64,000 nucleotides of DNA. It comes from Rhizobium sp. CC-YZS058. GTDB taxonomy: Bacteria; Pseudomonadota; Alphaproteobacteria; Rhizobiales; Rhizobiaceae. The notes under the pieces are model-generated. The model ran no database searches. It was not told where the DNA came from and was given only the letters and a program-made list of their open reading frames with translations. The stretch is from NCBI RefSeq assembly GCF_034720595.1, contig NZ_JAYESJ010000001.1, forward strand, positions 126,501 to 190,500, in the 5' to 3' direction. Made by a program: the position numbers and the translations under genes. Positions 1,405 through 22,237 of the stretch are shown here, piece by piece (the first letter of the stretch is position 1; the number at the start of each line of letters is the position of its first letter).

Positions 1405-3393
1405 ATGGCTGTTGATATTTCCGGCACCCGATCAGGCACATATCAGCTTCGCAACATATCGAACGAGACAGTGAACTTTCTCAGTGGAGCGGTCATAAAT
1501 GCGAGCCGCGGTGCAGGCATTCTTGCGAGTTCGGTCACGAACCTAACATTAAATCTCGACGGATTTGTTGCAATTAGCGACACCTATGCACGCTCGTACG
1601 GTGTCCAAGTGAGTGGGAATGGAAACGCACTCAATGTCGGAACTAGCTTTGGGTTCTCCGAAGACAACCCAAACGTTGAGACCGGAGCGATATTCGTCAA
1701 CGGCTCCAATAACTTCATAAGCAATTACGCCAATCTTGATTACCGCGAGGATATCCGCATTAGCGGCCCAGGGAATCTAGTTTCAAATTTCGGCCTCATG
1801 TCGAAAATCGAGATGAGTGTTGAAATGAGCATAGCTAACAACGGCCAACTAGGCCAGGTCACGGTGATGGATGGGACGTTCCGAACCAGCAATCTGACTA
1901 CTGTGGTGAACGATGGGGAATGGGGAGGTTTTAATAACTCGGGTTCTTCAACCAAACTCAATGCGTTTGAAGGGAGCAGTGCAGCAGAGATAATTATCAA
2001 CAACCACATTATCGCCGACGACGTCCGCTTCGGCGCGGGCAACGATATTTTCCGCAACAATGGCGGATACATGGGTGGTCTTGTTTTCGGGGGAGCTGGC
2101 GACGACACCTTCATTCTGGATCGAGGCACGGTCCGCGGGATCGGAGGTCCGCTGACAGGCCTCTACAACGCAATCGAGTACGCAGGTGAGGGGGTCGATA
2201 CGGTAATCCTTACCGAGGATTTCATAAACGATTTGACCGGCGTATTTCAGATATTCGAAAACGTAGAAGATCTGATACTTATGGGTGTTTCTGCAGGAAA
2301 GGCGCGCGGCAACAGTCTCGATAACGCACTGTACGGTAGCGAGGGAAAGGATTTCCTGGACGGCGCAGATGGCAACGACCGGCTAGAGGGGGCGGGTGGA
2401 GCGGATACATTGATAGGTGGCGCCGGCATCGACACAGCGGTCTATTTAGGTAACCAAGCTAACTACGTCGTGACGCAGGACGCGAATGGTAGTGTGACAG
2501 TCCGCGGCATAGGCGAACGCGCCGAAGATGGCACCGACACCCTTTCTTCGATCGAAAAGCTCGCGTTTTCTGATGGCACAATCGACCTGAACACGTTCGT
2601 CAACGTGGCACCCGTGATTACCTCGAATGGTGGCGGTGCCACTGCACTCATCAGACTAGTGGAGGGTGGAACTTCCGTGACGAAGGTTCAAGCTAGAGCA
2701 GAGCAAGGTAAGCTTAGCTTTTCCCTTTCCAGCAGTGACGATGCGGCATTGTTTACAATCGATTCTGTAACTGGAGTGCTCGCATTTAAAAGGACAACTG
2801 ATTTCGAGACGCCACGCGACGGCGGACGAGATAACATTTACAACGTGACGGTCATCGCTAGCAATGGGGCGAAGAGTGATCAGCAGGACCTGAGTGTGCT
2901 TGTGAAAGACAAATCGGGTCTGACGCTTAGCGGTTCATCAAAGAATGATGTCCTCAGGGGCACTTCTGAAAGTGACGTGCTGTCCGGTGGTAAGGGGAAC
3001 GATAAACTTTTGGGAGGGGCGGGGAATGACAGACTGATTGGTGGTCTTAATTCTGATGTTCTAACCGGCGGCAGCGGAAAGGACACGTTTGTCTTCAATG
3101 CGAAGCTGGGTTCAACGAACATTGATAAGATAACGGATTTCACTGTCCGTAGCGACTCTATCCAGCTTGACGACGACATATTCAAAAAAGTCGGCAAAAT
3201 TGGCGACCTCGCTTCCTCAGCATTCTGGACAGGCGCAAAAGCGCATGATGCGAACGACCGCATCGTCTATGACAAAAAGTCTGGTACGCTATGGTACGAT
3301 CAAGACGGCAACGGAGCAGCGAGCGCCGTTCAGATTGCGCAGATGAGTAAGAATCTGACGTTGTCGGCGCTAGATTTCGAGATAGTCGCCTGA
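1405..3393 (+). CDS. RTX calcium-binding secreted protein with cadherin-like domain
   Basis: This 662-residue protein lacks a Sec signal. Residues 1-300 are Asn/Gly-rich, beta-helix-like repeats. Glycine/aspartate nonapeptide RTX repeats occur around 311-347 (DGADGNDRLEGAGGADTLIG) and again around 509-565 (GGKGNDKLLGGAGNDRLIGG). Residues 417-500 resemble a cadherin-like module (FTIDSVTGVLAF then YNVTVIASNG). The end (GTLWYDQDGNGAASAVQIAQ followed by a hydrophobic tail) matches the C-terminal secretion region of rhizobial RTX proteins exported by type I secretion. No ABC/HlyD/TolC secretion genes are adjacent, so export would rely on a system elsewhere. The exact role (adhesion or surface layer) is inferred. 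Confidence 0.85.
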   Translation: MAVDISGTRSGTYQLRNISNETVNFLSGAVINASRGAGILASSVTNLTLNLDGFVAISDTYARSYGVQVSGNGNALNVGTSFGFSEDNPNVETGAIFVNGSNNFISNYANLDYREDIRISGPGNLVSNFGLMSKIEMSVEMSIANNGQLGQVTVMDGTFRTSNLTTVVNDGEWGGFNNSGSSTKLNAFEGSSAAEIIINNHIIADDVRFGAGNDIFRNNGGYMGGLVFGGAGDDTFILDRGTVRGIGGPLTGLYNAIEYAGEGVDTVILTEDFINDLTGVFQIFENVEDLILMGVSAGKARGNSLDNALYGSEGKDFLDGADGNDRLEGAGGADTLIGGAGIDTAVYLGNQANYVVTQDANGSVTVRGIGERAEDGTDTLSSIEKLAFSDGTIDLNTFVNVAPVITSNGGGATALIRLVEGGTSVTKVQARAEQGKLSFSLSSSDDAALFTIDSVTGVLAFKRTTDFETPRDGGRDNIYNVTVIASNGAKSDQQDLSVLVKDKSGLTLSGSSKNDVLRGTSESDVLSGGKGNDKLLGGAGNDRLIGGLNSDVLTGGSGKDTFVFNAKLGSTNIDKITDFTVRSDSIQLDDDIFKKVGKIGDLASSAFWTGAKAHDANDRIVYDKKSGTLWYDQDGNGAASAVQIAQMSKNLTLSALDFEIVA

Positions 3394-3437
3394 AGATTCC
3401 AACTCAGTGAAGTGCGAGCCCTTCAATCAGCGACTGA

Positions 3438-3458
3438 TGACGCAAGGGAGTTGCGTCA
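3438..3458 (+). terminator. possible terminator hairpin after the RTX gene
   Basis: TGACGCAA and TTGCGTCA form a perfect 8-bp stem with a 5-base loop, 45 bases after the RTX stop codon. There is no real T-run after it, so intrinsic termination is uncertain. Confidence 0.35.
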
Positions 3459-3623
3459 TTCGAGTTGGCGACAGCCTAAGCAACTAATCTTCACAATGCC
3501 TTCGGGACCATCAGCGAGCTATAGTTCGTTGGAGCCTTAGCCGTAACAGAATGCGTTCCGAAAGAGGTGGTTCGGTTTGTCTGAACAGTTTCGGGCGTTT
3601 TGCTAAGTGGATTTCCGCCTCGA

Positions 3624-4454
3624 TTATGCCGCCACCATCATCGGTGCCAGCGCGTTAAAGTAGGCCTGATCCGGCGTCTGCCGGCCAAGGGATGAATGTG
3701 GGCGTCTGGTGTTGTAGAAGTTCAGATATCGGCCGATGCCAGCGCGTGCCTCGGACACAGTCTTGTAGGCATGGAGGTAGACTTCCTCGTATTTGATCGA
3801 ACGCCAGAGCCGCTCGACGAAGACATTGTCTCGCCAGGCACCCTTGCCATCCATCGAGACGGCGATCTGCGACCTCTTCAGCACGGCGGTGAAGTCGATG
3901 GAGGTGAACTGCGATCCCTGGTCGGTATTGAAGATTTCCGGCTTGCCATGACGGGCAAGTGCCTCCTCCACCGCCTCGATGCAGAAGGCTGCTTCCATCG
4001 TGATCGACAAGCGCCATGACAAGACCTTCCGGCTGAACCAGTCCACGACGGCGCACAGATAGACAAATCCCCGCGCCATGGGGATGTAGGTCAGGTCCAT
4101 TGCCCAGACCTGATTGGGCCGGGTGACTGCCAGCTTTCGTAGGAGGTAGGGATAAATCTTGTGCCCTGGCGCCGGTTTCGAGGTGTTCGGGCGGCGGTAG
4201 ATCGCCTCGATGCCCATCTTCTTCATCAGCGTGGCGACGTGTAGTCGCCCGGTCTCCAGACCTTCTCCTCTCAAGAGCCCCTGCAACATCCGACTTCCGG
4301 CAAAGGGGTAGTCGAGATGCAGTTCGTCAATCCGGCGCATAAGGGCCAGATCGCCGTCAGACACCGGACGTGGAGAATAGTAGACGCTGCCACGGCTGAA
4401 GCCGAGAAGCTTCGCCTGGCGCACGACGGATAGCTTGTGCTCGCGGTCGATCAT
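3624..4454 (-). CDS. IS3-family transposase OrfB (DDE integrase core)
   Basis: OrfB supplies the catalytic domain of the IS3-family transposase. The three acidic residues are visible in their usual settings: WAMDLTYI (first D), NTDQGSQFT (second D) and VERLWRSIKYEE (E). An N-terminal HTH_21-like segment precedes them (MRRIDELHLDYPFAGSRML). At 276 residues the length is normal and the frame is unbroken. It overlaps OrfA by the 4 bases ATGA. In this family OrfA and OrfB are often joined by programmed -1 frameshifting, but I see no clear A-rich slippery heptamer at the overlap, so translational coupling is also possible. Confidence 0.9.
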   Translation of the reverse strand: MIDREHKLSVVRQAKLLGFSRGSVYYSPRPVSDGDLALMRRIDELHLDYPFAGSRMLQGLLRGEGLETGRLHVATLMKKMGIEAIYRRPNTSKPAPGHKIYPYLLRKLAVTRPNQVWAMDLTYIPMARGFVYLCAVVDWFSRKVLSWRLSITMEAAFCIEAVEEALARHGKPEIFNTDQGSQFTSIDFTAVLKRSQIAVSMDGKGAWRDNVFVERLWRSIKYEEVYLHAYKTVSEARAGIGRYLNFYNTRRPHSSLGRQTPDQAYFNALAPMMVAA

Positions 4455-4783
4455 TTCTTTCCGCCCAGCAATCCCGCCTTGCCGAGCGCACCGGATAAAA
4501 AATCGTTCTCCAGTGTCAGTTCGCCGATTTTCGCGTGCAGCGTTTTGACATCGATGGTCGGACCCGACGGCTCCGCCTTCGTTTCATCGCCGAACACACC
4601 CGTCGCCCCCTCAAGGAGCTGGTCTTTCCATTGCTTGATCTGGTTGGCGTGCACATCGAACTGCTGGGACAACTCCACCAGCGTCTGCTCACCTCGGATG
4701 GCGGCAAGTGCCACCTTCGCCTTGAAAGCCGGGCTATGGTTCCGGCGCAGTCGTCTCGTCATGGTCTCTCCTGTTCCCGGCAT
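4451..4783 (-). CDS. IS3-family transposase OrfA (HTH)
   Basis: This 110-residue protein has the HTH_Tnp_1 pattern at its N-terminus (RRNHSPAFKAKVALAAIRGE and FDVHANQIKQWKDQLLEGA). A leucine-zipper-like heptad follows (KTLHAKIGELTLENDFLSGA), which serves OrfA/OrfAB multimerisation in the family. It recognises the element's terminal inverted repeats. An AGGAGAGA-type ribosome binding site precedes its ATG on the minus strand. Its stop overlaps the OrfB start. Confidence 0.9.
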   Translation of the reverse strand: MPGTGETMTRRLRRNHSPAFKAKVALAAIRGEQTLVELSQQFDVHANQIKQWKDQLLEGATGVFGDETKAEPSGPTIDVKTLHAKIGELTLENDFLSGALGKAGLLGGKK

Positions 4784-4814
4784 CTAAGCCGAAGTCAGGC
4801 AGAAACTCCACTCA

Positions 4815-5142
4815 TCCCCGATGTGCAGATTTCCCGAGCCAGCTCTATCATCGTATCTCACAATGCACGCAAGCTCTGGAAGCGGTCCATCAGCTCGTGG
4901 ACGAGGCTACCCTTGAGACACGTCGCAAGACTGTCGCGGTGGTTACTCCCATATCTTTCGAGCTGGCATCTGCCCTTATCCTTCTCGCAAAACTACGCTC
5001 GCTTGGTCAGGCTGATGTGAACGAAAACGCTGTATGGCAGGCAGCGCAGATGAGAATGGCCAGTGCGCGCCACGCGCTTTTCGTTGCACAAGACGATGGC
5101 GATTTGCCCTACTCCTTCCGCGGCTCGGCTTTGTCGATATAG
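4815..5142 (+). pseudogene. 3' remnant of an unknown gene cut by the IS3 element (possible)
   Basis: The frame is open from the IS boundary to a TAG at 5140-5142, about 109 codons. The only plausible start inside it is a GTG at 4897, which lacks a Shine-Dalgarno sequence. The protein text before that GTG (QLYHRISQCTQALEAVHQLV) has the same helical character as the text after it, which suggests that the true N-terminus lay across the insertion point. The remainder is helical (SFELASALILLAKLRSLGQA). I do not recognise the family. If the GTG is real this is an intact 81-residue gene instead. Confidence 0.4.
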
Positions 5143-5295
5143 GACCGAAATACAAGAACGGGACGACGCGGCCTCATCCAGCAGGGTTGACCACAATAGA
5201 TTCAGTCGTGGCCGCCACTAGCTTTTGCGCGGTATGGGACATACACCCACAGTCGTGGATGCGAACTGCAGCTCCTCGTGTCAAGGATTCTCGAT

Positions 5296-5649
5296 ATGCT
5301 GGACGAACTCAAGCAGGCTGTGAACGCGTTTGCGATCGAGATCCAGCTGGTGGAAGAAACGTCCGCACTTGGCATGGTTCAGGGCTATCATGTGATCCGG
5401 CCCGCCAAATCGATCGAAGAGCTCCAAGCGTTGAAGGTGACGCATGCTGAGGCGTTCCGCGCTCTTGCTGGGGAAGTTCACTCCCTCACCACGACGAGCG
5501 AGCTAGACGCCTTCCGTCGTCGTTTTGCAGCTTCAAGTGTTGCCCTCCGCCAGGTGCTCCCGCTGCCAACCCTAGCTGCTCAAAGATACGTAGATGCCGC
5601 TTTGGTAGGAGCAGCGTCGCATTTGTCCAGGATGAACAGCGTTACATAG
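5296..5649 (+). CDS. hypothetical helical protein
   Basis: The ATG at 5296 is preceded at 8 bases by AAGGA, which decides the start over an upstream in-frame GTG at 5278. The 117-residue product is predicted mostly helical (MLDELKQAVNAFAIEIQLVE, and LTTTSELDAFRRRFAASSVA), without signal peptide or membrane segment. No family is recognised. It stands alone between the IS-disrupted remnant and a tiny membrane protein gene. Confidence 0.5.
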   Translation: MLDELKQAVNAFAIEIQLVEETSALGMVQGYHVIRPAKSIEELQALKVTHAEAFRALAGEVHSLTTTSELDAFRRRFAASSVALRQVLPLPTLAAQRYVDAALVGAASHLSRMNSVT

Positions 5650-5732
5650 CTCAACCGCGAAACGCAGCGGCCCCACATCTTGACTACCGATGGCGCTTGG
5701 AAGAGCCTGTCAGACACGACCCGGAGACCATC

Positions 5733-5852
5733 ATGACCAATGACGCAAGCTACAGAACCGCTGATCGCGCTGGCTACATCCTCGGCGCGATTGTCAGCAT
5801 CTTGGTGTATGGGATCGTCCTATTCCCCATGCTCAAAGCATTACTGGCGTAG
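5733..5852 (+). CDS. 39-residue single-pass membrane protein
   Basis: The frame encodes MTNDASYRTADRAGYILGAI and then a hydrophobic segment (VSILVYGIVLFPMLKALLA) ending in TAG. A GGAGA ribosome binding site sits 5 bases before the ATG. The product is one polar N-terminal tail plus one transmembrane helix. It lies 175 bases upstream of the cobalamin riboswitch, so it is probably not under cobalamin control. Such small proteins are often missed in automatic annotation. Function unknown. Confidence 0.5.
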   Translation: MTNDASYRTADRAGYILGAIVSILVYGIVLFPMLKALLA

Positions 5853-6026
5853 GCCGCCAGCACCGCGCGTGGCCCTATCAGATCATTGTGGGGAGATTGG
5901 GTGCACGTCAGAGCACGAACAAGTCTAGCGTCCGCGTTGCATCCTGCATCAGTAGGCCTTGTGGATTGACAACACGTCCTGGGCGAGCCTACGTCTAGGC
6001 ATCGATCGGTACCGAGAGAGGCAGAC

Positions 6027-6250
6027 GCCTTCGAGGTGTAAATGGGAACGTGACGGGCGGACCAATATTCGGCGCCCATATCACGGCCGACCCCGCGACT
6101 GTAGAGTGGCGAGGAATTATCGAGCCGGCACCCCGGCTAAAGTCACTGCGTTGGAACGGCGAAGGCCTCAGATACGCGGGAAGACGAGAGTATTCCGAAG
6201 GCGAATGCATATCGCCCGACGCCATGAGCCAGGAAACCTGCCGAGCGATA
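6027..6250 (+). promoter_or_regulatory. cobalamin (B12) riboswitch upstream of cbtBA
   Basis: The conserved elements of the AdoCbl riboswitch are in order. GAGGTGTAAATGGGAACGTG is near the 5' end (6033-6052), CCGACCCCGCGACTGTA is the central core, GGCGAAGGC and GGGAAGACG follow, and the B12 box AGCCAGGAAACCTGCC lies at 6227-6242. A G/C hairpin (CCGGGGTTCATCCCCG) then lies between the aptamer and the cbtB ribosome binding site. In this class cobalamin binding turns expression off, which fits a cobalt importer as target. Confidence 0.9.
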
Positions 6251-6306
6251 GGAGCGTCGTGCTCCGACCGGGGTTCATCCCCGTACGCGCCATCACGGAG
6301 GTTGTT

Positions 6307-6483
6307 ATGGCTCATTCTCGTTCCAACGCTGCGGCTTTGCCGCTGAGCGACCGTCTTATCGCCGGCGTATTCTCCCTATTTCTCGGCGCTGCCCTCATCT
6401 TCGCGGCAGGATTGGCCAATTCATCGACGCTGCACGACACAGCGCATGATGTTCGCCATTCCTTCGGGTTTCCCTGCCACTAA
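6307..6483 (+). CDS. cbtB: CbtB, small subunit of the B12-regulated cobalt transporter
   Basis: This 58-residue protein has one transmembrane helix (VFSLFLGAALIFAAGLAN). Its short C-terminal tail is rich in histidine and ends in Cys-His (HDVRHSFGFPCH), the hallmark of CbtB, where the tail is thought to bind the metal. It follows directly on a cobalamin riboswitch, has a GGAGG ribosome binding site, and is followed by cbtA. CbtAB is predicted from comparative genomics to take up cobalt for cobalamin synthesis. Confidence 0.88.
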   Translation: MAHSRSNAAALPLSDRLIAGVFSLFLGAALIFAAGLANSSTLHDTAHDVRHSFGFPCH

Positions 6484-6576
6484 CGACAGCGTCCCTCTTC
6501 AGCGATAACCCAGCCCGCCACCTCAGCAGTGGCGGACGCGCTTTGGCTTGCGCTGCAGAGGGCAGAGGATCAAAAT

Positions 6577-14348: not shown

Positions 14349-14948
14349 TCATCGATCGAGCCTCTTAGCTCTAGGCCTCTTCGCTGCAGTCTGGACAGTT
14401 GAGATTGCAGCCTGGCCCGTCGTTGAGGCATCAGCATCGGCTTCTGCCAAATGCGAGTCTTCAAGCAGCTTCTCGACAGTTTCAACGTCTACTGCCCTGA
14501 TGCGAATGAGCTTACCGCCAAGCCGAAAGGAGGGAAGTTTGCCACTTTCTATAAGATTGCGAACGTGGCGCTCAGAGCACCCCCAGCGCTTCGCGACCAT
14601 GGCGGGCGTGAATACCTTCCTGGCCTCGTCATAGACCGGTTTTAGCGGTCTCGCTTCAGAGCCCATGTTTGCACGCTTGCTAGATAGATCGGAGTGAAGG
14701 TCTGAAGCTTGGCTTTTTTGTTGGCCTCTCGGCTTGGGGCGGGCATCTTCTAGAATGGCCTCCAGATCCTCTGGCATGAAGAACATCGACTTCCCGATGA
14801 CTCGGAATGCTCCGAGACGTCTGGCTATGTCACGAAGGGTCCGCTCCGAGATAATGATGCCGTTCGCGGCGAATCTCTCCACAAGTGCTTCCGGCGTGAT
14901 CAGTTCTGGAAACTGCCAATTTTGTCGGGTTTCCGGCGCGTCGTTCAT
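14349..14948 (-). CDS. protein with two excisionase/MerR-like helix-turn-helix domains
   Basis: The 199-residue protein has two copies of an HTH_17-like fold. The first, at about 15-65 (ITPEALVERFAANGIIISER then MFFMPEDLEAIL), is like the second, at about 112-162 (FTPAMVAKRWGCSERHVRNL then LRIRAVDVETVEKLL after GG). HTH_17 is the DNA-binding fold of phage and ICE excisionases, where it bends DNA at attachment sites or acts as a small regulator. Its gene is divergent from the 15100 gene with about 150 bases between, so it may regulate that module. The two-domain arrangement is unusual for plain excisionases. Confidence 0.7.
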   Translation of the reverse strand: MNDAPETRQNWQFPELITPEALVERFAANGIIISERTLRDIARRLGAFRVIGKSMFFMPEDLEAILEDARPKPRGQQKSQASDLHSDLSSKRANMGSEARPLKPVYDEARKVFTPAMVAKRWGCSERHVRNLIESGKLPSFRLGGKLIRIRAVDVETVEKLLEDSHLAEADADASTTGQAAISTVQTAAKRPRAKRLDR

Positions 14949-15099: not shown

Positions 15100-16209
15100 A
15101 TGATTCGGATTGACATTCACACTCGTCAGATATCGCCAGAAACGAAAGTTTTCGTAGCTCGGCCCGGTGGAAAGTATCGATTCTTCGAATTATTCGTGGA
15201 ACGAAATTTTGTTGGACCGGACTTGCCCGGGCTTGCGCTCCCGCACTTCGCTGACCTCTCAGAGGTTGAAGACTTGGAGGAGCGAGTTAAACGATCCTAC
15301 GATACGAGAAAGTACATCTTCCGTGGCGAGCGGGACATCGATCCGCCGGTAGAAGAACTTGAATATTATCGTGACCGCCCGAACAACCGCGCTATATCTC
15401 AGCTACTAGGCGTCGTTCGAGCGTACTTCCGGACAATGAAAGCCGGCGACCTAGTTATTGTCCCGCCGGCAGCTTTTCGTGGCCGCGCGATGATTGGAGA
15501 ACTTACCGGCCTGCCAAACGAAGTCGCCAGCGTCAGACCGGTCGAGTATGACGGTAAGCCGCTCGATGGGCGGAATGTGGTATGGCGGGCTGATATTGAG
15601 AAAAATAAGCTGCCGGCCCAAACCCTCGACGCGCTGCAGAAACCCTCACCACTTTTCTTGGTAACGAGAGAGGCTTGGCCGTCAATTTTCCGGCGTGCAT
15701 ACGGCTCGTACTCGATGCCGAACGAGTATGCCGCCCGGTTCGAAATCACCTCGGACGGCTTCCAAACAGTCGATGACTTCAGAATACAAGCGTTCTTTAG
15801 CTTCGTTACGAAGAACACAGAGCTGGTCGCTGACGGTGCAGGCCGGGTCCTTCCGCTGAAGGATGCCGCGTTTGCAAGCTCCCGCATTCCCCCTGAGCTC
15901 TATACGAACGTTAACTCTCCCGGCGGTCTCTCGTTGAAATCCAGCATAATCACGCCTATTGTAATCTCGGTGATGCTCACCCTGGCGATAGTTGTGGGAC
16001 CCGAGGCATATGCCCAAGCTGAAGCTGGCATGATCCTTTTCGGCAACTCGCAAGCACCAGCTAATGATGCGTGCACATTGGAAGTCAGCCAGCAAGTCAT
16101 TACTCAACTACAACTTCTCGGGTACGATCGGTGGGCCGAAGCCTGCGAAGTCGCCCGTGCTGCCTCGGAACGAACCGGGATATCAACTTCAGTCGGTGTC
16201 GAAAACTAA
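15100..16209 (+). CDS. Mrr-N/PUA-like reader domain fused to a transmembrane segment
   Basis: Residues 15-200 follow the layout of the N-terminal PUA-like domain found in Mrr-type modification-dependent restriction enzymes. The pattern is an FVARPGGKYRFFELF-like entry strand, FVGPDLPGL, then AYFRTMKAGDLVIVPP and RGRAMIGELTG, followed by VRPVEYDG. That domain is thought to read modified bases. No nuclease domain follows. Instead there is a soluble stretch, one strong transmembrane helix (about 280-303, ITPIVISVMLTLAIVVG), and a 65-residue tail with two cysteines. GGGAGG precedes the ATG. The next gene overlaps its stop by 1 base (TAATG). The domain call is by pattern only, and function is unknown. 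Confidence 0.55.
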   Translation: MIRIDIHTRQISPETKVFVARPGGKYRFFELFVERNFVGPDLPGLALPHFADLSEVEDLEERVKRSYDTRKYIFRGERDIDPPVEELEYYRDRPNNRAISQLLGVVRAYFRTMKAGDLVIVPPAAFRGRAMIGELTGLPNEVASVRPVEYDGKPLDGRNVVWRADIEKNKLPAQTLDALQKPSPLFLVTREAWPSIFRRAYGSYSMPNEYAARFEITSDGFQTVDDFRIQAFFSFVTKNTELVADGAGRVLPLKDAAFASSRIPPELYTNVNSPGGLSLKSSIITPIVISVMLTLAIVVGPEAYAQAEAGMILFGNSQAPANDACTLEVSQQVITQLQLLGYDRWAEACEVARAASERTGISTSVGVEN

Positions 16210-16688
16210 TGTTTAGATGGTTTTCAAGTCTACCTGAATGGTTGCGCAACGGCATCCTGGTGCTGGTGGGCAGTGTTGGTGGCTGGCTGGGTAGTCAGTG
16301 GATGGATTATCGCACAGCATACAAGGAAAGCCTTGGCGAGAATTATGAGCGCTTCGATACCGCTGCATCGGCGGTCCAGGAATCCCTGATCCGATTTGCA
16401 GACATCGCCAGTGGTGAAACGAAGAAGTCTGACGAGGACGTGAACACTATTCAGAATCGCTTAATTGCTGCCGTGAGTGCCGCAGAGGATCTGCAGCGCC
16501 GCCTGAAGGCGGACGAGAGAGTGATTGCCGGCTATCGATTGGCTACCGTTGAACTCAAGCATGAGTCCGATAAGGTAACCGGTCCTCTTGATGCCAAGCC
16601 GCTGGTGAGAGCGGTTAACTCCTACCTGGTTGCGGAAAAATCCCTGCGTGACCATGTGGTGGAGCAGCAAAACTCGTTCCTCTATTGA
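16209..16688 (+). CDS. membrane-anchored helical protein, partner of the Mrr-N-like gene
   Basis: The ATG at 16209 overlaps the preceding TAA (TAATG), so translation is coupled. The 159-residue product has one N-terminal transmembrane helix (NGILVLVGSVGGWLGSQWM). The rest is helical, probably coiled-coil, ending in about 120 soluble residues (AVSAAEDLQRRLKADERVIA). No enzyme motif is visible. Its coupling to the preceding gene suggests that the two form one membrane complex. Confidence 0.6.
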   Translation: MFRWFSSLPEWLRNGILVLVGSVGGWLGSQWMDYRTAYKESLGENYERFDTAASAVQESLIRFADIASGETKKSDEDVNTIQNRLIAAVSAAEDLQRRLKADERVIAGYRLATVELKHESDKVTGPLDAKPLVRAVNSYLVAEKSLRDHVVEQQNSFLY

Positions 16689-16966: not shown

Positions 16967-17089
16967 CGGCGGTCCTTTTTTGCGAGCGAGGACGCGATGA
17001 AAGAACACTCGAAGTGACTGAGGCAGTGGTTTAGATTAGCATGGGGCACGGCGGGGCCTCCGGTAGCCATATACATGGTAACTATAACT

Positions 17090-17236
17090 GTATGCCTAGA
17101 GCATACACTCAGAGTCTAAAAACAGGCTCTATCGTATGCCCTGGACATACACTTGGCGGTCTATGGTATGCTCTGGGCGTACCATGCTCTGTTTATCGTA
17201 TGCCCTAGGCACACCATTGGTATGCTCTGGGCATGC
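17090..17236. repeat. five phased copies of a 17-bp palindrome
   Basis: Five near-palindromes of the form GTATGC-N5-GCATAC (consensus GTATGCYCTRGGCATAC) start at 17090, 17134, 17166, 17198 and 17220. The first is perfect and the other four each have one arm mismatch. Start-to-start distances are 44, 32, 32 and 22 bases, all close to whole turns of the DNA helix, as for iterons or cooperative operators. Four copies lie inside the 3' coding part of the interrupted minus-strand gene at 17129..17662 and encode repeated PEHT-type text; the first lies beyond its stop. Confidence 0.8.
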
Positions 17237-17662
17237 CGGGTTTTCTTCTTCAGGCCTCCAGTTCATGAACTCTTTCGTGCCTCCGGTCAGCACTCGGAGC
17301 GGCAAATCGCGCGGCAGATCGGTCAGCTCCCAACGTGTCGAGCGACCGTAGTTGCTGCCCTGCTTCGCGACCTTCCAATCGAAAGAGCCTTTGACCCCTG
17401 GCTTTATAAAGCCTTTCTCCTGCAGGCCAGTGAAGGCAGCCGCAACGGGCTTGTTGCTGCAGTTCAGGAGCCGCTCGGCCTAGCGATGTGACACGGGAAT
17501 GTCGCCATTGTTCCGGCCGTTGTATCGGCGCTTGATGGCGATATAGAGCGCCTGCTCATAGACAGACGCAGCCTGCCAAGCGGCGCATTTGAAGAACCAT
17601 TCATGCATCTGGATATAGTGACCGTCGCCAACAGTTCGCCCGGTCGCGTTGTGTTTCGCCAT
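17129..17662 (-). pseudogene. winged-helix-like island protein interrupted by one amber codon
   Basis: The gene starts at an ATG that overlaps the stop of the upstream XRE gene (TAATG). It reads MAKHNATGRTVGDGHYIQMH, then ALYIAIKRRYNGRNNGDIP and SHR, reaches TAG at 17480-17482, and continues in the same frame for 116 codons (AERLLNCSNKPVAAAFTGLQ, EKGFIKPGVKGSFDWK, RWELTDLP) to a TAG at 17129. The joined text has the order known from rhizobial island proteins with a winged-helix fold, where the stop position normally carries Glu (REAERLL), so GAG to TAG is the likely change. The tail is repeat-encoded. The interruption, or readthrough or a sequencing error, is undecided. Confidence 0.75.
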
Positions 17663-17910
17663 TAATCACCCTTGGCCTTCGGCTTCGCCAGTCGCACCCC
17701 AGCACCGCCCCCATTCTCTGGAATGAAGACAACCCCTGCGGCTTCCAACGCTCGTTTGATTGCGTCCACATTGCCGGCCGCGCTGCGCTCCGTTCCAATG
17801 CTCTCCATGCGCTTGATTGTCTGAGCGGAGAGGCCAGTAGCCTTCGCCAGATCCTCCTGCGTCATACCGACGAGCGCCCTTGCGGCCTTCATTTGGTTTG
17901 CGTCGATCAC
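17662..17910 (-). CDS. XRE-family HTH transcriptional regulator
   Basis: The 82-residue protein is a single Cro/CI-type helix-turn-helix (MKAARALVGMTQEDLAKATG, LSAQTIKRMES). The C-terminal AGVVFIPENGGGAGVRL segment is typical of small rhizobial regulators. It is the first gene of a minus-strand pair and overlaps the next start by one base. It may act as autorepressor and could bind the palindromes at 17090..17236, but this is inference. Confidence 0.88.
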   Translation of the reverse strand: MIDANQMKAARALVGMTQEDLAKATGLSAQTIKRMESIGTERSAAGNVDAIKRALEAAGVVFIPENGGGAGVRLAKPKAKGD

Positions 17911-18801: not shown

Positions 18802-19317
18802 ATGTCGAACGATACCGTTCCGGCCAATGTCGAAGCTATGGCCGCTATCGCCCGCCTCGCGGAGACTGACACCGTTGTGCGCCTCGCTCAGGACATGAGA
18901 AAAGCGGTGTCCGAATATGACCGCCTCTGCCACCTCGCGGCCAAGCACGAGAAGAATGCAGCCGGCCGCTACTATGCGGAAGGAATGGAGCAAGCTGGCG
19001 ACAAGCACGCAGCGCTTGAGACCGCATTGTCTCAGCACAAGGCCTGCACCGCGGAAGGGGCTTTGGTCCAAGCCTGCCTATTGATTGATAGCTTCATTCG
19101 CCTTGGCGAGTACGGCAACGACCGCGACCAGCAGCGCCAATTCGATGAGGACATTCGCGCCGCAAACCGGCTGGCGTTCTCCGTCATCGACTACCTGCGC
19201 AGCGTTTGCGCCTTCCAGCCGGAAGCTATCGGCTTCGAATACCAGCACCTCAATCCCTGGCTCTCCGCTGACGAGCGCCTTTCCCACGCCGGCATTGCTT
19301 TGGAGGAAGTACGATGA
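18802..19317 (+). CDS. hypothetical protein of the island operon
   Basis: The 171-residue product is soluble and helical (VEAMAAIARLAETDTVVRLA, DRLCHLAAKHEKNAAGRYYA). GGAG lies upstream of the ATG. It overlaps the following gene by 4 bases (ATGA), so it is translationally coupled. No catalytic motif or known domain is recognised. Confidence 0.7.
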   Translation: MSNDTVPANVEAMAAIARLAETDTVVRLAQDMRKAVSEYDRLCHLAAKHEKNAAGRYYAEGMEQAGDKHAALETALSQHKACTAEGALVQACLLIDSFIRLGEYGNDRDQQRQFDEDIRAANRLAFSVIDYLRSVCAFQPEAIGFEYQHLNPWLSADERLSHAGIALEEVR

Positions 19318-20066
19318 TCAAGGCACCTCATCCCGCACTCGACCTGTCTTTCATGCGCCGCAAAGGCAGGGGGCAGGGGATCGACCATTGGGACGTGACC
19401 ACGGCCGGCGATTATGTCGAGGACTGGAAACGCGGCGCTCGGCTCGGCTCCGAATACCTCGCCTACATTGGCCGGCATTCCACGACCTTCAATGCAACGT
19501 TGCTGGGCTGCATCGTTCAGGACATGGGCGCACCGAAAAACGGGCTTATGCTTGGCTTCCTTCGCGCTGTGAACGAACACGCGATGCTTGGCGCTCGTCT
19601 GGTCAACGGCGGCTCTGATGATGCGGCCGAGCCCGCCCCTTCGATTGCTGAACTATTCGGGATTTGGAAGCAGCACCGCGCTGCCGTCGCCATGGCAGAT
19701 GCTGCCGACGAGGCGGCGGTGAACACGGCCTCCGATGCGGCCTACGAGGTTGGGCAACGCCTCCTAAAGATGCCTGCCGTCACGGCGCGTGACTTCGCGA
19801 TGAAAGTCATCGTTAGCACAACGGCCGATGCATTCGAAATCGACGCGGACTTGATGAAAGAGGCTCTTGATCTCGCAGACTATCAGCGAGGGGGGCGAAT
19901 GATGCGCAACGCTGCCGCCATCGCTGCAGCTCATGCCAGGGCGTCACGCATCGCCCTGGCTACGCTCGCCAGCCTCACCGCCTTTGCTTTCGTAGTGACA
20001 GTCGCCACGGTCGCAGAACGCCATCAGGCCCGAACGGATCGGATTATGCAGGAGGTTCGCCCATGA
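19314..20066 (+). CDS. hypothetical protein with C-terminal membrane anchor, island operon
   Basis: This 250-residue protein is mainly helical and cytoplasmic (GIDHWDVTTAGDYVEDWKRG), with a single C-terminal transmembrane helix (about 216-238, ALATLASLTAFAFVVTVATV) and a short tail. It is therefore probably tail-anchored. It overlaps both neighbours by 4 bases, showing tight coupling. I recognise no family. Confidence 0.7.
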   Translation: MIKAPHPALDLSFMRRKGRGQGIDHWDVTTAGDYVEDWKRGARLGSEYLAYIGRHSTTFNATLLGCIVQDMGAPKNGLMLGFLRAVNEHAMLGARLVNGGSDDAAEPAPSIAELFGIWKQHRAAVAMADAADEAAVNTASDAAYEVGQRLLKMPAVTARDFAMKVIVSTTADAFEIDADLMKEALDLADYQRGGRMMRNAAAIAAAHARASRIALATLASLTAFAFVVTVATVAERHQARTDRIMQEVRP

Positions 20067-22147: not shown

Positions 22148-22237
22148 TGGCGGACAGGGAGGGATTCGAACCCTCGGTACGCTTTCACGTACACACGCGT
22201 TCCAGGCGTGCGCCTTAAACCACTCGGCCACCTGTCC
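22148..22237 (-). tRNA. tRNA-Ser(GGA)
   Basis: On the minus strand the sequence begins GGACAGGTGGCCGAGTGG and closes with CCTGTCCGCCA. This pairs the 7-bp acceptor stem and includes an encoded CCA. The anticodon loop is CTGGAAC between CACGC and GCGTG, giving anticodon GGA (serine). A long variable arm (GTGTACGTGAAAGCGTAC region) and the T-arm GGTTCGAATCC confirm the class II structure. Its 3' end points toward the low-GC accessory region. Confidence 0.97.

Follow-up and report, generated by a model that had tools for sequence, protein, structure and literature searches.

A possible membrane sensor-effector pair with an EVE-like reader on mobile elements of alpha-proteobacteria

This report concerns two genes, A and B, that together form a 1.6-kb unit in a 64,000-nucleotide stretch of Rhizobium sp. 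CC-YZS058 (contig NZ_JAYESJ010000001.1, positions 126,501 to 190,500 of the forward strand). That whole stretch is called the window below, and positions are those of the window unless another locus is named. Gene A joins a predicted reader domain of the PUA superfamily to a hydrophobic helix and a short tail, and gene B encodes a small, predicted helical protein that begins with a hydrophobic segment of its own. The reading that we favor, albeit tentatively, is that A and B constitute a two-gene membrane sensor-effector module of prophages and other mobile elements, comparable to RexAB and serving exclusion or abortive infection. The two genes and their parts are as follows:

15100..16209, + strand: gene A, 369 amino acids; EVE/YTH-like reader, alpha/beta part, hydrophobic helix and two-cysteine tail
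15142..15702, + strand: EVE/YTH (PUA-superfamily) fold, residues 15-201 of A, from the predicted structure
15943..15999, + strand: hydrophobic helix, residues 282-300 of A, a probable transmembrane segment (KD19 2.40)
16000..16206, + strand: tail of A, residues 301-369, with cysteines 325 (16072-16074) and 349 (16144-16146)
16209..16688, + strand: gene B, 159 amino acids; predicted hydrophobic helix at the N-terminus, continued by a four-helix bundle
16251..16304, + strand: glycine-rich hydrophobic helix, residues 15-32 of B

The stop codon of A (TAA) and the start codon of B (ATG) have one base in common (TAATG). Relatives were found for both proteins, namely 49 for A including the query (48 besides it, with identities of 30-70% and coverage of 82-100% of A) and six for B including the query (five besides it), and both are therefore taken to be conserved coding genes. 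Neither Pfam nor NCBIfam holds a meaningful family match for the window's own A or B.

The reader was recognized in a predicted structure and by profile comparison. In an AlphaFold2 model compared by VIA-align, residues from about 12 to 202 of A are predicted with high confidence to adopt an EVE/YTH fold, which is PUA-like. By hhalign, residues 14-202 are homologous to the N-terminal reader of the Mrr-type enzymes of PDC-S02 (probability 97.8, E 7e-13). The corresponding PADLOC profile (PDLC04819) is reached at E<=1 by 33 of 56 members of the A family, at best with E 9.8e-8; the match of the window's A is weak (E 0.009) and covers only profile positions 50-150, and the nuclease part of the profile, at about positions 164-309, lies outside the stretch matched by A. 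The N-terminus of A is thus predicted with high confidence to have the fold of a PUA/EVE reader, and profiles relate it to the reader at the N-terminus of Mrr-type enzymes. The window's own genome also encodes a protein (L021, G000 C1:2919091-2920083) that matches the PDC-S02 profile over its full length, positions 1-330.

Beyond the reader the two kinds of protein part company. The C-terminus of PDC-S02 proteins is the nuclease domain Mrr_cat (four of four proteins scanned), whereas A continues with an alpha/beta part, the hydrophobic helix and the two-cysteine tail, and the pair has in addition a second membrane gene. No nuclease family is matched by A in scans of Pfam, PADLOC and NCBIfam (the last gives no match in A of any kind), and Mrr_cat is matched neither by A nor among the 56 family members. 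Pfam EVE (PF01878) likewise goes unmatched at E<=1 in every one of the 56 sequences of alignment A4, and an hhalign comparison with an EVE alignment returns a probability of 1.3. The A profile does reach, with E 7e-5, a reader inserted in a McrB-like GTPase (L016); this protein also has a match to Pfam EVE, in an overlapping stretch and under the EVE cut-off. Placed by way of the GD motif, the position of the EVE tyrosine, which by our reading is also that of W82 in VcaM4I, is apparently Pro122 in A. As a separate observation, four McrB-like GTPases (L016, L040, L041 and L042) carry an apparent reader domain inserted after the P-loop and ahead of the later AAA motifs, a feature backed by a Pfam scan in L016 only.

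The membrane-linked part of A is conserved throughout. All 58 alignment rows have a hydrophobic segment at a corresponding place, with KD19 values of 1.47-2.76 and a start at reference residue 277-287. C325 and C349 are the sole cysteines of A, both in the tail; C325 is kept in all 58 rows and C349 in 57, the remaining row being incomplete, and the cysteine pair is present in 20 of the 21 loci described below. The tail is probably pinned by a disulfide.

In the window's B the single N-terminal hydrophobic segment is weak (KD19 0.99); one main segment of this kind is found in 18 of 19 B rows, the later-starting P0055 having no clear one. The model of B is helical, with the hydrophobic N-terminal helix predicted to continue into a four-helix bundle. 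Such a bundle, if periplasmic like the sensor domains of QseE or of chemoreceptors, might detect an event in the periplasm, with the reader of A as an output that sequesters nucleic acid. We judge this reversed direction of signaling very improbable: unrelated bundles (TLNRD1, designed proteins, apolipoprotein E) reach equal scores in the structure comparison, and the lysine and arginine residues flanking the helix, 52 before and 39 after it over 21 loci, leave its direction in the membrane unfixed. An AAA or GTPase domain was matched in neither A nor B.

Most of this architecture had been anticipated in a preliminary description made from the letters of the window alone. The two adjoining, coupled genes with their TAATG overlap are present at 15100-16209 and 16209-16688; the likeness of the N-terminus to the PUA-like reader of Mrr-type enzymes is upheld by fold, hhalign and PADLOC, and the N-terminal half did not prove to have some fold other than EVE/YTH-like. 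The first gene does lack a nuclease motif, its proposed transmembrane helix corresponds to the conserved hydrophobic segment and its short cysteine-containing tail to the residues around C325 and C349, and the second gene does encode a protein that is modelled as helical and has an N-terminal hydrophobic segment as its probable membrane anchor.

The search for co-occurrence that the description called for shows A and B to be regular companions. There are 21 non-redundant loci with a complete A (the window, L002-L013, L057-L059 and L061-L065), at identities to the window's proteins of 18-70% for A and 12-67% for B, and in all 21 a B-like gene directly follows A. The spacing ranges from -4 to +71 bases, with overlap in 11 of the 21, by the start codons chosen here; in L012 the record's own start for B lies six bases later than the chosen one. 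When the 484 called open reading frames of 22 loci (L060, a near-copy of L059, being included) were grouped by BLAST at E<=1e-6, the B genes fell into groups of 11 (window, L002-L011), six (L058-L063) and two (L057, L065), with L012, L013 and L064 ungrouped. A B profile, A3, built from sequences that included L012, L013 and L015 (L015 being from the L065 genome), scores 16-42 bits against L057, L058 and L061-L064; as only a few dozen open reading frames were covered by each of these searches, the B groups are linked in addition by the position, length and architecture of the genes. The pairwise distances of A and B correlate (Spearman rho 0.72; none of 2000 permutations as high). By the same BLAST grouping, no third gene family occurs in at least three of the 22 loci except tyrosine integrases, present in six (L003, L008, L011, L059, L060 and L063), and no McrB-type GTPase gene recurs beside the pair.

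Full-length A is rare and patchily distributed. With the window's own genome included, up to five candidates scored per genome, and sets for order, class and family that partly overlap, it was found in two of 397 genomes of the order (three matched, one of them being the McrB), in two of 385 of the class, together with one truncated copy, and in 10 of 394 of the family (where two more, making 12 in all, matched over the reader only). The truncated copy (L017/L066), 193 amino acids long, has no B and runs into an unrelated gene.

As to setting, the pair is a mobile two-gene unit of alpha-proteobacteria, carried in prophages, plasmids and integrase islands. An element type was assigned for some loci only, L004, L006, L007, L064 and L065 being among those without one: L009-L011 are IMG/VR viral contigs, L012 (6.3 kb) and L013 are plasmids, L008, L011, L059 and L063 lie beside an integrase confirmed by Pfam, and phage tail genes adjoin in L062 (a Phage-tail_3 protein by Pfam) and, by eye, in L057 and L061. 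The same spread gives weight to a role in the upkeep of mobile elements apart from defense, in which A would tether nucleic acid to the membrane for plasmid or prophage maintenance, segregation or entry exclusion between elements, and B would be its anchor or regulator. Of the five genes annotated on the 6.3-kb Methylobacterium plasmid, two are A and B; the pair is found on several kinds of element, and neither an enzyme nor a third gene is repeatedly seen with it. Yet it is present as well in tRNA-associated islands of the chromosome and next to phage tail genes, settings that do not call for segregation, and restriction-type enzymes are the closest relatives of the reader. We regard such a role as unlikely, if still a serious contender.

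The phage-borne loci bear on another account, in which the pair is an accessory to phage lysis or morphogenesis and B is a holin- or spanin-like protein controlled by A. B has weak PHROG matches to a holin and an Rz-like spanin (phrog_35009, E 0.0014; phrog_1152, E 0.0042), A matches, likewise weakly, an unnamed PHROG phage family (E 0.0014), three of the loci are the IMG/VR contigs, and the predicted structure of a phage protein in BFVD, A0A8S5NVT7 (Myoviridae sp. ctEBR14, 336 amino acids), aligns with that of A across 379 columns (E 2.3e-15, 16% identity, TM 0.53-0.58). By that last likeness the architecture of A may also exist outside the alpha-proteobacterial set. We consider a lysis accessory improbable, given the weakness of the PHROG scores, the occurrence of the pair on plasmids and in integrase islands as well, and its orientation in L061 and L062, opposite to that of the adjoining tail-like genes (mostly by eye).

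The island that holds the pair in the window ends, on its right, at the following feature:

22148..22237, - strand: tRNA-Ser (GGA), right border of the island

In six of six other genomes of the genus, the conserved DNA starts at this tRNA-Ser gene (window position about 22146) and extends rightward; no reported match covers the pair in any of the six, other matches of the query being weak and scattered (40 candidates scored per genome). In each of the 21 loci the pair has a lower GC (guanine plus cytosine) content than the locus around it; in the window the pair's value is 0.539, against a yardstick of 0.617 for the whole 64 kb, the surrounding island itself ranging from 0.53 to 0.62 per kb. 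Divergent from A, at 14349-14948 on the - strand, lies a regulator with two HTH_17/excisionase-like stretches, which is not counted in the module because no relative of it was found beside the other pairs examined. The accessory island and the divergent double excisionase-like regulator are thus where the preliminary description had put them, and the homologues, on prophages, plasmids and integrase islands, are not confined to a housekeeping context. Elsewhere in the island, an array of imperfect palindromes of the GTATGC type at 17086-17237, between gene B and an XRE-type gene, has repeats of 20-27 bases spaced 44, 32, 32 and 22 bases apart and looks like operator or iteron repeats; the XRE gene (17662-17910) resembles L063 826-1089, and a gene at 19314-20066 resembles L011 1302-2201.

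Known defense genes lie near the pair in some loci. Ten neighbor genes chosen by eye gave six strong PADLOC matches and one weak match, with three genes unmatched; the strong ones are, in L013, a CBASS cyclase (E 4e-206), a SAVED-HNH effector (6e-134) and an IetA-type AAA protein (1e-27), in L005 PifA (2e-171), in L058 a PDC-S20 KAP ATPase (4e-78) and in L059 CARF6 (4e-42). An unpicked check took all called proteins of at least 120 amino acids around the pair in eight genomes, with one control region from each same genome (123 neighbors, 38,499 residues, against 123 control proteins, 45,911 residues). Neighbors matched 51 PADLOC families at E<=1e-10 and controls five. The sample is small, and many of those 51 families repeat a single system in redundant profiles (RmrA or RmrT accounts for 14 of the 25 shown); among the controls, the matches to mad3, PycC and Csa3 look generic. 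Two neighborhoods deserve mention in their own right: besides the pair, locus L059 holds at 1729-6503 an adenine methylase-like gene (by eye), a calcineurin-wHTH gene, an ORC-CDC6-like ATPase and the CARF6 protein, possibly a separate conflict system, and the gene at L061 10410-11720, beside the pair, has an FWSWQSDTPG motif near its start and is matched by neither Pfam nor PADLOC at E<=1e-3.

Two genes that adjoin and often overlap, that travel on mobile elements and of which the second encodes a small membrane protein, also recall toxin-antitoxin systems, with B as a membrane toxin that A restrains until the element is lost. A hipBA-like pair does adjoin in L059 (by eye; its HipA-like protein has no PADLOC match), but the antitoxin would here be the larger gene, probably membrane-bound and with a conserved reader, which is unusual, and no toxin family was matched by A or B in scans of Pfam, PADLOC and PHROG; there is little to recommend this account. 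Kiwa (KwaA/KwaB) is a defense system in which a membrane protein acts with a DNA-binding partner. The PADLOC scan of A and B, the only comparison made with Kiwa, gave no match to it.

The nearest precedent for a prophage DNA sensor joined to a membrane effector would be RexAB, also treated in PMC11077077; PMC12894663 describes it as two prophage proteins, a DNA-binding sensor and a membrane protein that on its signal damages the membrane and arrests growth, and two-hybrid tests of RexAB-type proteins are described there as not proving binding between the two. The analogy would lie in a two-gene, prophage-borne unit of a DNA-type sensor and a small membrane protein. It has its limits in that A, unlike the Rex sensor, is itself membrane-linked and EVE-like, and in that the RexB-type protein has four predicted transmembrane domains (PMC12894663), whereas B has one hydrophobic segment and a bundle. 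As set out in the main text of PMC7641849, prokaryotic EVE/PUA readers of modified bases are parts of nucleases, GTPases and toxin-like fusions. Compared with the EVE-HNH endonuclease VcaM4I and the EVE/YTH domains in PMC7897488, A is without a nuclease, apparently has proline for the stacking aromatic residue and has no match to Pfam EVE at the sequence level. EVE- or YTH-bearing McrB GTPases (PMC7641849 and PMC11090510) have a reader of the same broad kind, detectable in L016; no GTPase is seen in A or B, which have a membrane link in its place. The McrBC census mentions GTPases to which an FtsB-like part bearing a transmembrane helix is fused, which is a different arrangement, and PMC12923530 concerns a single-component modified-cytosine nuclease. 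The main text of the EVE-context survey (PMC7641849) uses "transmembrane" nowhere and "membrane" five times, in mitochondrial or immunoglobulin matters and in references, and no description of a membrane-linked EVE-like reader was found in the literature searched, including a full-text query for "EVE domain" with "transmembrane" that did not extend to subscription papers or outside preprints.

Returning to the RexAB-like sensor-effector module, we start from what was computed, namely the predicted reader fold, the hydrophobic segments, the two conserved cysteines, the regular association of the genes and the mobile setting, and from these we infer the ligand, the topology of the tails, a contact between A and B, an effect on the membrane and a role in defense. 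A would hold its EVE/YTH-like reader in the cytoplasm and pass the membrane once, ending in the short, probably disulfide-pinned tail, and B would likewise pass once and end in its four-helix bundle. Beyond fold and anchoring, the steps may be that the reader binds nucleic acid of foreign origin, perhaps modified, close to the inner membrane, that the bound reader alters its contact with B, and that B then blocks DNA entry or makes the membrane leaky. Two reservations attach to this: by sequence placement, A seems to have a proline at the position of the base-stacking aromatic residue of EVE domains, and the topology given for A's tail is tentative. The interpretation given in the preliminary description therefore stands in part. 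It is supported by a reader that is linked to a hydrophobic helix and not to a nuclease, by a membrane partner that recurs and by a mobile setting with defense genes in some loci; modified-base binding, membrane disruption and phage defense keep their conditional form.

The pair is accordingly offered as a candidate for a new way of sensing phage attack. That it represents the first class of EVE-like readers recognized to span the membrane, a sentinel inspecting nucleic acid on its way through the inner membrane and responding there by means of a disulfide-pinned tail and a four-helix partner, with no nuclease, is a bolder proposal and a doubtful one at present. As the unit amounts to no more than two genes in 1.6 kb, it is directly testable in laboratory strains. 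If the proposal is true, a conserved, mobile, nuclease-free membrane reader would tie the recognition of foreign nucleic acid to the site at which phage DNA enters the cell, and a new output would be added to the EVE/PUA family of readers.
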